64,000 bases of DNA, from assembly GCF_900141805.1 (NCBI RefSeq), contig NZ_FQYN01000001.1, positions 496,001-560,000 on the forward strand, in the 5' to 3' direction. Position numbers and translations under genes: made by a program. The stretch comes from Hymenobacter daecheongensis DSM 21074 (GTDB lineage Bacteria > Bacteroidota > Bacteroidia > Cytophagales > Hymenobacteraceae). Shown here piece after piece: positions 61,218 to 64,000 of the stretch (position 1 is its first letter; every line of letters begins with the position of its first letter). The notes beneath the pieces are model-generated. The model saw nothing but the letters and a program-made list of their open reading frames with translations. It did not search any database and was not told the origin of the DNA.

Positions 61218-61290
61218 GGTAATGTAGCTCAGTTGGTAGAGCACAGCACTGAAAATGCTGGTGTCGTTGGTTCGATTCCAATCATTACCA
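61218..61290 (+). tRNA. tRNA-Phe, anticodon GAA
   Basis: 73 bases. The acceptor GGTAATG pairs with CATTACC. The anticodon stem is CAGCA / TGCTG with loop CTGAAAA, giving GAA. The T arm contains GGTTCGATTCC. CCA is not encoded. The AT-richer defence segment begins about 300 bases downstream, so the 3' end is a candidate integration site. Confidence 0.94.
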
Positions 61291-61292
61291 CT

Positions 61293-61328
61293 AAAAAGCC
61301 CTTCTGCAGCACGCGGAAGGGCTTTTTT
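61293..61328 (+). terminator. Terminator after tRNA-Phe
   Basis: AAAAAGCCCTTC pairs with GAAGGGCTTTTT; a T run follows. Confidence 0.85.
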
Positions 61329-61330
61329 GT

Positions 61331-61586
61331 TGTTTGGGGCATGAATTGGGGTATGTGGGGCGTTGCCTATATGCATCTGTTATATGCGATACTAAAGGAC
61401 TACGAAGTCATTTGGGAAGCATGTACCAGGGGCTGTTGCCTTACGCCCTCTCCTATTTGAGTACCTATCAAGCCTTCACTATTTCTGCTCTCAAGGAATT
61501 TAAGCCTTTATTCCGACGCTTGTTTGAGCCCCTCTTTGTGTAGGCTACCTTAGCAGAAAAATTCCTTTAGTAACCCTGCTGTTGAT
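61331..61586 (+). other. AT-richer leader region before the DUF4007 gene
   Basis: No gene I can support. A 69-codon open frame at 61334-61543 lacks family similarity that I can see. Composition shifts here from the GC-rich backbone to the AT-richer segment. No integrase and no copy of the tRNA 3' end is visible. Confidence 0.4.
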
Positions 61587-62489
61587 ATGGAGCGCCTAAT
61601 ATTCAGTGGACACGATACGTTTACGTGTAAGCACAGTTGGCTGAAAAAAGGCTATGATTTCTTAAACACTGGGCATAGCTTCACCGATGCGGATGCAGTC
61701 GTAAAGCTTGGCGTAGGCAAGAACATGGTCACGGCTATTCGCTACTGGCTTCGCTCCTTTGGCTTAACAGATGAAAGCGATACCCTGCAGGAGGAAGCTC
61801 ATCTCTTTCTTTCTACCGACGAAGGATATGACCCTTATATTGAAGACAATGCGACACTTTACTACCTGCATTATCTGTTAGTCAAGACGAATAGGGCTTC
61901 GCTTTACAGTATAGTTTTTAACGAATTGCGAAAAGAGAGCTTTGGCTTTAGCCGGAAGCATCTGCAGCAATTCGTGGTCCGCAAGTGTGAGGAGGTGGGG
62001 GCCCCTCTGGTCAACGACAACACGCTAGATACTGACATCACAGTATTCGTGCGAAGCTATTCCGCTAGTAATCGAAGCAAGCCTGATGTGGAAGAAGATT
62101 CAACGGGCCTCCTGCAGGACCTCTCGCTACTCAGCGTTGACCGTACTACGGAGAGGGTAGACAACAAGGAAACTTCCATTGAATGGTACCGGCTAGAAAA
62201 TCAAGAGCGTAACGACATACCCTGGCAGGTTGTCCTAATGATTATTCTGGACAACCCTACCTGGGGTGAAGTTATCAGCTTCCGGGACTTGGAGGCTGCT
62301 CCTAATTCACCGGGGTTAGTGTTTGCGCTGAATGAAAAAGGCCTCTATTACAAGATCGAAGAGATGATAGAGCGTTACCCAAAAGACATTGTTTATTCCA
62401 GCACAGCTGGCAACCGGGTTTTAACAATCAAAAAAGACCGAGTGCAACTCGCAGAGGTCATGCAAGAATATTATGGCCAAACGGTTTAG
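61587..62489 (+). CDS. DUF4007 family protein, defence-associated
   Basis: A 300-residue protein. FSGHDTFTCKHSWLKKGYDFL at the N-terminus and AVVKLGVGKNMVTAIRYWLRSFGL (shown as landmarks) are the DUF4007 signature; the C-terminus has a possible winged-helix part (DIPWQVVLMIILDNPTWGEVISFRDLE). From memory, DUF4007 genes occur beside PAPS-reductase (DndC-like) and ATPase genes in Dnd-like phosphorothioation or related defence islands. A role in sensing or marking DNA is inferred. ATG at 61587-61589. The next gene overlaps its end by 17 bases. Base composition is AT-richer than the backbone. Confidence 0.85.
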   Translation: MERLIFSGHDTFTCKHSWLKKGYDFLNTGHSFTDADAVVKLGVGKNMVTAIRYWLRSFGLTDESDTLQEEAHLFLSTDEGYDPYIEDNATLYYLHYLLVKTNRASLYSIVFNELRKESFGFSRKHLQQFVVRKCEEVGAPLVNDNTLDTDITVFVRSYSASNRSKPDVEEDSTGLLQDLSLLSVDRTTERVDNKETSIEWYRLENQERNDIPWQVVLMIILDNPTWGEVISFRDLEAAPNSPGLVFALNEKGLYYKIEEMIERYPKDIVYSSTAGNRVLTIKKDRVQLAEVMQEYYGQTV

Positions 62490-64000
62490 TCCTTCTGTCA
62501 ATATCGTTCGGGATGCAACTCATGAGCTTTCCTACTTGCCTACGCCCAATGCGAAGGCTGTTTTTGGGCAACTTGTCAACAACTACCTATCTGGCACCCA
62601 CTGCTTCAATATAGTAGGTGCTTACGGCACGGGTAAGTCGGCCTTCCTGTGGGCTTTCGAGCAAACCTTAATGAACAAGAAAACCTACTTCCAATCAGAA
62701 GTCGGTTTTAAGAATGTAGCCGCTTTTAAGTTTGAGCACTATGTTGGTCAATATGCCTCCCTAAAAGAGACCTTGGCCCAACGCTTTATGCCTGATGGCA
62801 ATGCTGAAGCAAACTCAAAGGCTGTAATTAATGCCCTTGACAAAGAGTACCATAACCTTGCTGCCAAGCAAACAGCATTGGTTTTAGTAATCGACGAGTT
62901 CGGTAAGTTTCTAGAGTACGCCGCCAATGAGAACCCTGACGAAGAACTTTACTTCATCCAGGAGCTAGCAGAGTATATCAACGACTCTTCCAAGGAAATT
63001 CTCTTACTAACTACCGTCCACCAAGACTTCAGCAATTATGGCTTCGCGTTAAGTCGTACCCAACAGCAGGAGTGGGCGAAGGTGAAAGGACGTTTGAAAG
63101 AGTTGCCTTTCAACGAACCGGTAGAGCAGCTACTCTATCTAGCGGCTCAGCAACTAGCTACTTCTCAGGAGTCAAAGGCTGACCTGTCACTCAACCAGCA
63201 GCTTTTTGAGGCCATTAGCGCCGCGAAGGCGTTTCCGCTGCATGATTACTTCACTCCCGAGGTACAACGGGACGTATGGCCGCTAGACATACTCTCAGCT
63301 GCTGTGATGGTGTTGGCCCTGCAGCGTTACGGGCAAAACGAACGGTCACTGTTTTCCTTTCTACGCTCAGATGACTACTTAGGTCTTCAGGATCATCCAG
63401 CCGATGGCACCTACTATGGTGTTAGTAGTGTATACGACTACCTACTTTACCACTATTACTCGCTGCTGTCCTCGCGCCATAATCCACATGCGGCACATTG
63501 GGCCAGCATAAAGGAAACTTTGGACTTGCTAGAGGCTGGCTTCCATGAAAAAGCCGGCCTAGATGCCGCACGTAAGCTAGTTAAGACCATAGGTCTCCTA
63601 TCTCTTTTCGCGCCAGCTGGTGCTGAGTTAGACTCAGACTTCCTCACTACTTATGCCCGACTCAGCTTAAGCATACCCAATGCTGAACCTATATTGACCG
63701 TGCTCACTAGGCGTAAGCTGATCCGGTTTGTAGACTACAAGAAGAGTTATGTTCTATTTGCTGGAACTGACCTCGATATAGAGTTGGCCATTGACGAGGC
63801 CGGCAGCTTAGTAGAGCAAGTAACGGATGTAGCTACTCGTCTCAGCACCTTCTTCTCTTTCCCATACGTCGCTGCCAAACGCATCTCTTTTGAAGTTGGG
63901 ACGCCCCGAATCTTCAAAATCGTAATGACGGAGCACCCTCTACTGGAGCAGCCGCAAGGGGAAATTGATGGCTACGTGAACCTGATTTTCTCCGATACCT
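62473..64000 (+). CDS. Large P-loop ATPase of a putative defence island, cut by the window edge
   Basis: An open frame of 509 codons running off the right edge. It begins MAKRFSPSVNIVRDATHEL. The P-loop is VGAYGTGKSAFLWAFE near residue 53, Walker B is LVLVIDEFGKFLEY near residue 141, and sensor-1-like LLLTTVHQDFSNYG follows. The middle is helical (DYFTPEVQRDVWPLDILSAAVMVLALQRYG, as landmark). This looks like a STAND/AAA-type ATPase of the kind found with DUF4007. ATG at 62473-62475 overlaps the DUF4007 gene by 17 bases, pointing to one operon. The C-terminal part is missing. Confidence 0.85.
   Translation, partial: MAKRFSPSVNIVRDATHELSYLPTPNAKAVFGQLVNNYLSGTHCFNIVGAYGTGKSAFLWAFEQTLMNKKTYFQSEVGFKNVAAFKFEHYVGQYASLKETLAQRFMPDGNAEANSKAVINALDKEYHNLAAKQTALVLVIDEFGKFLEYAANENPDEELYFIQELAEYINDSSKEILLLTTVHQDFSNYGFALSRTQQQEWAKVKGRLKELPFNEPVEQLLYLAAQQLATSQESKADLSLNQQLFEAISAAKAFPLHDYFTPEVQRDVWPLDILSAAVMVLALQRYGQNERSLFSFLRSDDYLGLQDHPADGTYYGVSSVYDYLLYHYYSLLSSRHNPHAAHWASIKETLDLLEAGFHEKAGLDAARKLVKTIGLLSLFAPAGAELDSDFLTTYARLSLSIPNAEPILTVLTRRKLIRFVDYKKSYVLFAGTDLDIELAIDEAGSLVEQVTDVATRLSTFFSFPYVAAKRISFEVGTPRIFKIVMTEHPLLEQPQGEIDGYVNLIFSDT

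Follow-up and report, generated by a model that had tools for sequence, protein, structure and literature searches.

The 64,000-nucleotide window analyzed here (the whole stretch of Hymenobacter daecheongensis DSM 21074 DNA) ends inside an integrative element on which sspBCD genes stand beside a DUF262-SIR2 gene pair and a gene for a GHKL-type ATPase. We consider it probable that this tRNA-Phe element carries a three-layer phosphorothioate (PT) defense, made up of marking by SspBCD, a SIR2 NADase gated by the DUF262 protein, and a restriction layer of the GHKL type. The DUF262-SIR2 pair is a separate cassette that recurs with sspBCD in several phyla. Its presence beside sspBCD is apparently undescribed: our literature search, which was not exhaustive, found no publication in which sspBCD and SIR2 appear together.

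An integrative element at tRNA-Phe

The contig was read for 60 kb from just left of tRNA-Phe, and positions beyond 64000 are window coordinates continued along the same contig (Table 1). As a preliminary description of the window alone had noted, the DNA becomes AT-richer downstream of this tRNA: GC content is ~0.60 before it and ~0.46 to 0.50 right after. Within the element it ranges from 0.35 to 0.51, against ~0.60 outside; it stays low until ~78 kb and is above 0.6 again from ~79 kb. Many congeneric genomes carry the terminator that lies 3' of the right repeat here directly next to tRNA-Phe, with the junction unbroken, and in a near-empty site (genome G430) the left and right element flanks are ~1.5 kb apart. 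tRNA-Phe is therefore the left end of an element of ~16.9 kb that is absent from these relatives. With an integrase, a direct repeat of the tRNA 3' end, and a near-empty site in relatives all present, this is a tRNA-targeting integrative element.

The preliminary description had placed a probable defense island here, with the 3' end of tRNA-Phe as a usual integration site, and had suggested looking past the window edge for an integrase gene and another copy of the tRNA end. Both lie there, the latter as an exact 23-nt repeat. The downstream genes (sspBCD, DUF262, SIR2, and the GHKL-type ATPase) are not housekeeping genes, and the relatives have this region in element-free form rather than carrying the two window genes at the same place with normal base composition. 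Two small open reading frames (ORFs) without assignment stand between the HTH regulator gene and the DUF6371 gene. Outside the element, a gene for an ATPase-like protein (367 aa) overlaps one for a 214-aa protein in DNA of lower GC content (84022-85696, minus strand, continued coordinates); these two may be another small defense pair.

Table 1. Features of the tRNA-Phe element, in window coordinates continued beyond 64000
Feature	Position	Strand	Basis or remark
tRNA-Phe, anticodon GAA; integration target	61218-61291	+	ARAGORN
Left repeat of element (final 23 nt of tRNA-Phe)	61269-61291		Exact second copy at right end
In-window portion of ~16.9-kb integrative element	61269-64000	unstranded	ORFs, PADLOC, Pfam, NCBIfam, GC, relatives' junctions
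sspB, DUF4007 protein, 300 aa	61587-62489	+	PF13182, 228 bits; PADLOC SspB, 312 bits
sspC, P-loop ATPase, 1080 aa	62473-65715 (beyond window edge at 64000)	+	PADLOC SspC, 1264 bits, residues 13-1054
sspD, PAPS-reductase family	65705-66811	+	PADLOC, 304 bits
DUF262/GmrSD_N gene, 353 aa	66827-67888	+	PF03235
SIR2 NADase-like gene, 284 aa	67891-68745	+	Pfam; ThsA best PDB match
GHKL-type ATPase gene, 825 aa, convergent to SIR2 gene	68742-71219	-	Weak GHKL/HSP90-type ATPase match
Xre HTH gene	71841-72095	-	Pfam/NCBIfam
DUF6371, DUF3987, two HTH_17 genes (mobile chassis)	73090-76632	-	Pfam/NCBIfam
Tyrosine integrase gene	76778-77998	-	Pfam/NCBIfam; right repeat just outside
Right repeat, 23 nt, exact	78158-78180		Continued contig coordinates

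The modification genes are of the Ssp type

By homology, the system is Ssp (single-strand phosphorothioate), with SspB, SspC, and SspD homologs encoded in one operon. The 17-base overlap of the DUF4007 gene with the large ATPase gene, already reported in the preliminary description, is that of sspB with sspC; sspC and sspD overlap by 11 bases. Searched against defense models, the ATPase matched SspC, and its Walker A motif reads GAYGTGKS. The sulfur-transfer part anticipated beyond the window, with a PAPS-reductase family gene, is sspD, just past the edge. The cluster had been taken as Dnd-like or related. It is indeed a defense cluster, but its type is Ssp and not Dnd: all three proteins match their PADLOC Ssp models, and Dnd membership was rejected on a score of 18.7 bits for the PAPS-reductase protein against a cutoff of 290.4 for DndC (TIGR03183).

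The PT mark of Ssp systems is 5'-CpsCA-3', and SspBCD here is predicted to put PT marks on host DNA. No cysteine desulfurase (SspA/IscS) is encoded inside the element. Two homologs are encoded elsewhere in the host genome, the better of which is 59% identical to an ssp-linked one, and one study describes IscS acting together with SspBCD (PMC8092258).

The DUF262 protein resembles the sensing half of SspE

The element resembles SspABCD-SspE systems (Xiong 2020; Gao 2022, PMC9646914) in having sspBCD followed by a DUF262 gene whose product carries the DGQQR and P-x-aromatic-QR motifs. It differs in that SspE combines DUF262 and a DUF1524 HNH nickase in a single chain of 771 aa (PMC9646914), whereas here the DUF262 protein is nuclease-free and the SIR2 protein is encoded by a separate gene. 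DUF1524 had no match in the element's DUF262 protein, nor in 38 relatives at an E value of 0.1. An SspE split over separate genes was also considered and rejected, since DUF1524 was not found in the element.

DGQQR is invariant in 38 DUF262 sequences, and P-x-aromatic-QR is kept across all 38; in SspE, the former is the GTPase motif and the latter the PT-sensing patch (PMC9646914, PMC13251355). However, P-x-Y-Q-R is general among DUF262 proteins, with a similar motif in the GmrSD-like proteins of loci L020, L024, and L149, so the motif is compatible with PT reading but is not proof of it. A sequence search of the element's own DUF262 protein against the PDB gave no match, and plain Foldseek with a DUF262 model returned nothing under an E value of 0.001. 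The relation to SspE became clear only in structural alignment: the high-confidence model predicted for a relative's protein (mean pLDDT, 91.9) had its best match in SspE, over residues 1 to 150 only (Z 8.9, rmsd 3.8, 136 aligned), tied with BrxU (Z 8.8, rmsd 9.8, 287 aligned), with further matches to ParB proteins (Z up to 8.2) and DndI (Z 5.9). The match of the modeled fold to SspE is modest, ParB proteins scoring nearly as high. From motifs and fold together, we infer that the DUF262 protein is most likely the counterpart of the sensing and NTPase half of SspE and reads the PT state of DNA. The PT-sensor fold of DUF262 is also common to DndI, which is Dnd linked and fused to HNH (PMC11662687).

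An NADase-like SIR2 protein

ThsA is the best PDB match of the SIR2 protein (1e-21), which groups with the NADases ThsA, Dsr2, and KomC; across 35 SIR2 sequences, the catalytic N and H do not vary. Judged from these sequences, the protein would act as an NADase in abortive infection. It has the SIR2 domain and catalytic N/H in common with ThsA of Thoeris but is without the C-terminal SLOG sensor. No TIR family member was found among the element ORFs scanned, and no ThsB TIR gene was recognized among them. A search of viral contigs for the SIR2 protein gave no close relative (best identity, 27%). A plasmid search gave four records, three of them (one from Hymenobacter and two from Sinorhizobium) at 38 to 40% identity, and in PLSDB the pair is annotated merely as "DUF262 domain-containing" and "SIR2 family." A suspected DUF262-SIR2 fusion in genome G721 proved to be a SIR2-histidine kinase protein, located away from ssp.

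The DUF262-SIR2 pair recurs with sspBCD and varies as a unit

A scan for SIR2 relatives, with one genome per species, gave 66 loci, and the 46 closest (L020 to L064 and L075) were analyzed; the scan used peptide patterns from ssp-linked SIR2 proteins and favors close relatives. These 46 loci belong to Bacteroidota, Alpha- and Betaproteobacteria (Pseudomonadota), Planctomycetota, and Binatota. The DUF262 gene was directly upstream of the SIR2 gene in 45 of them, and ssp genes lay within the fetched DNA at 43. The exceptions (L043, L058, and L063) lie at contig ends or on short contigs; sspD is present in the genomes that carry L043 and L058. The distant SIR2 relatives (L065 on) have no such ssp or DUF262 setting. 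Among 390 genomes of the order, sspD was present in 41 and the close SIR2 gene in 4, all four of these SIR2 genes being beside sspBCD.

Pairwise distances of the DUF262 and SIR2 proteins were correlated at 0.91 over 40 loci (0.88 within Bacteroidota), and those of SspC and SspD at 0.90 (0.84 within Bacteroidota). Correlations across modules, DUF262 or SIR2 versus SspC or SspD, were 0.60 to 0.65, falling to 0.18 to 0.30 within Bacteroidota. Tight correlations within modules and loose ones across them indicate two separate units, sspBCD and DUF262-SIR2, whose pairing has changed over time.

This distribution bears on the first of two main rivals to the reading of DUF262-SIR2 as a PT-gated suicide layer, namely, that the pair is an addiction module. 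In such a module, DUF262 would be an antitoxin restraining the SIR2 toxin while PT or the element is present, a cell losing sspBCD or the element would die, and phage defense would be secondary. The dependence of DUF262-SIR2 on sspBCD is one-way and obligate, as addiction would have it, the pair is carried by an integrative element in this genome and by plasmids in other cases, and the reader gene stands immediately upstream of the toxin gene, with gaps mostly of -14 to +12 bases. However, simple toxin-antitoxin pairs usually occur alone too, whereas DUF262-SIR2 is never clearly alone, and antitoxins are typically much smaller than the DUF262 reader. We regard addiction as improbable.

A GHKL-type ATPase occupies the place of restriction modules

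The preliminary description also suggested that a restriction-like part may lie beyond the window. Genes do stand in that place, but they form no known module: the DUF262 protein is without a nuclease, the SIR2 protein is NADase-like, and the third gene encodes the GHKL-type ATPase. The predicted fold of this ATPase is poor (pLDDT, 60), and a profile search against solved structures found none.

Counted from ORF calls, partly in metagenome-assembled genomes, the modules beside the 46 loci were the GHKL-type ATPase (14 loci), Pbe (13), SspFGH (8), a ResIII-HATPase set (2), and GmrSD-like genes (2), with none recognized at 7. No locus among the 46 had two or more of the GHKL, Pbe, SspFGH, and HATPase/ResIII modules, against 8.1 expected, and none of 10,000 shuffles, which ignore the relatedness of loci, reached 0. 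On the DUF262 tree, the module type switches at least 12 times, GmrSD included. Because the modules never co-occur and vary among loci, the constant partner of the DUF262-SIR2 pair is sspBCD. The GHKL-type protein had seven strong matches among the 390 genomes of the order, each encoded beside sspBCD. The ATPase gene thus appears to be a second, undescribed PT-associated gene in the restriction-module place, and mutual exclusion with the other modules suggests that its product probably attacks non-PT DNA.

Pbe-type genes are common beside bacterial sspBCD (L022, 10835-15958, and 12 other SIR2 loci). At L060 (10843-15177), L052, L121, and L126, a ResIII helicase and an HATPase_c_3 protein are encoded beside sspBCD, together with a PLD-like protein in L060; this set is perhaps a further PT restriction set.

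The presence of such modules touches the other main rival, in which DUF262-SIR2 senses phage or DNA damage, such as fragments made by the restriction module, independently of PT and travels with ssp as a back-up suicide system. Most often, the pair's neighbor is a PT system already equipped with a restriction module, and a review describes phage proteins or nucleic acids as what SIR2 NADases sense in other systems. A PT-independent sensor should, however, also occur beside non-ssp restriction systems, and the 46 loci include no clear case; moreover, the predicted reader fold is common to the PT sensors SspE and DndI. We regard this reading as improbable.

Sister cassettes follow sspD at other loci

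At seven sspD loci of the order (L120, L125, L129, L133, L134, L136, and L146), a DUF262 gene and a Hanks-type protein kinase gene replacing SIR2 follow sspBCD, and at an eighth (L031, 6752-8900) the kinase pair and the SIR2 pair stand in tandem. Kinase-linked and SIR2-linked DUF262 proteins form the two sides of one branch of the tree, with 100/100 support. Other loci have a DndB-family (PF14072) gene and a gene of ~175 aa beside sspBCD (L021, 11020-12791; L122, L123, L130, L138, L140, and L036); the small protein of L021 has no Pfam match and is GIY-YIG-like by eye. At L128 (10552-14171) and L020 (5994-8862), an AAA ATPase, a small protein that is PIN-like by eye, and a variable protein follow sspD. 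Four congeneric genomes (L139, L142, L154, and L155) have sspBCD followed by genes of about 1450 to 1570 and 770 to 780 aa.

That DUF262 regulates ssp expression in the manner of DndB, with SIR2 modifying a protein (for example, by deacylation) to tune PT marking without suicide, is highly improbable: a ParB-like fold is common to the DUF262 protein and DndB-type proteins and a DndB-family gene occupies the same slot at other loci, but the SIR2 protein falls among NADases, the alternative partner of DUF262 is a protein kinase, and no DNA-binding HTH was recognized.

Discussion

Gene content, mobility, linkage, covariation, and the conserved catalytic residues are direct observations; the mechanism is a proposal built on them. 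In the three-layer defense that we propose, SspB, SspC, and SspD would mark host DNA with PT, aided by a cysteine desulfurase encoded outside the element. The DUF262 protein would sense the PT state of DNA and gate the separate SIR2 NADase; if PT-free phage DNA builds up, or if the host loses its PT marks, SIR2 would destroy NAD+ and the infection would be aborted. The GHKL-type ATPase, in the slot of Pbe, SspFGH, and other modules, would attack non-PT DNA. Because self PT is always present, an NADase switched on simply by PT, in the manner of SspE, would be lethal, so either PT acts with the opposite sign or another signal is required. We favor release of SIR2 on PT-less DNA or on PT loss. 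More tentatively, the SspE-like reader may be a guard that restrains its partner (the SIR2 NADase, or the kinase in the sister family) as long as self DNA bears PT and lets it act once PT is missing or has been lost. PT would then be a survival license, and sspBCD would serve plug-in reader-effector cassettes.

Among known systems, SspABCD-SspFGH has sspBCD in common with the element, and some proteobacterial relatives have SspFGH together with DUF262-SIR2 (PMC8092258). Neither SspF, SspG, nor SspH was found among the element ORFs; the GHKL-type ATPase gene stands in their stead. PbeABCD, a Dnd-linked restriction module of archaea (PMC6459918), is absent from this element; in 13 of the 46 relatives, Pbe-type genes stand beside sspBCD-DUF262-SIR2 and are Ssp coupled.

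In a 2021 survey, 2,211 of 2,678 sspBCD clusters were without nearby sspE and sspFGH, and other counterparts were left open (PMC8092258). DUF262-SIR2, DUF262-kinase, the GHKL-type ATPase, and Ssp-linked Pbe are candidate counterparts for such clusters. PT defense is known as DNA restriction. If the proposed defense is correct, PT marking would also govern programmed cell death through NAD+ loss, and PT restriction would be joined with NADase immunity, fields that have so far been treated apart in the literature that we found.
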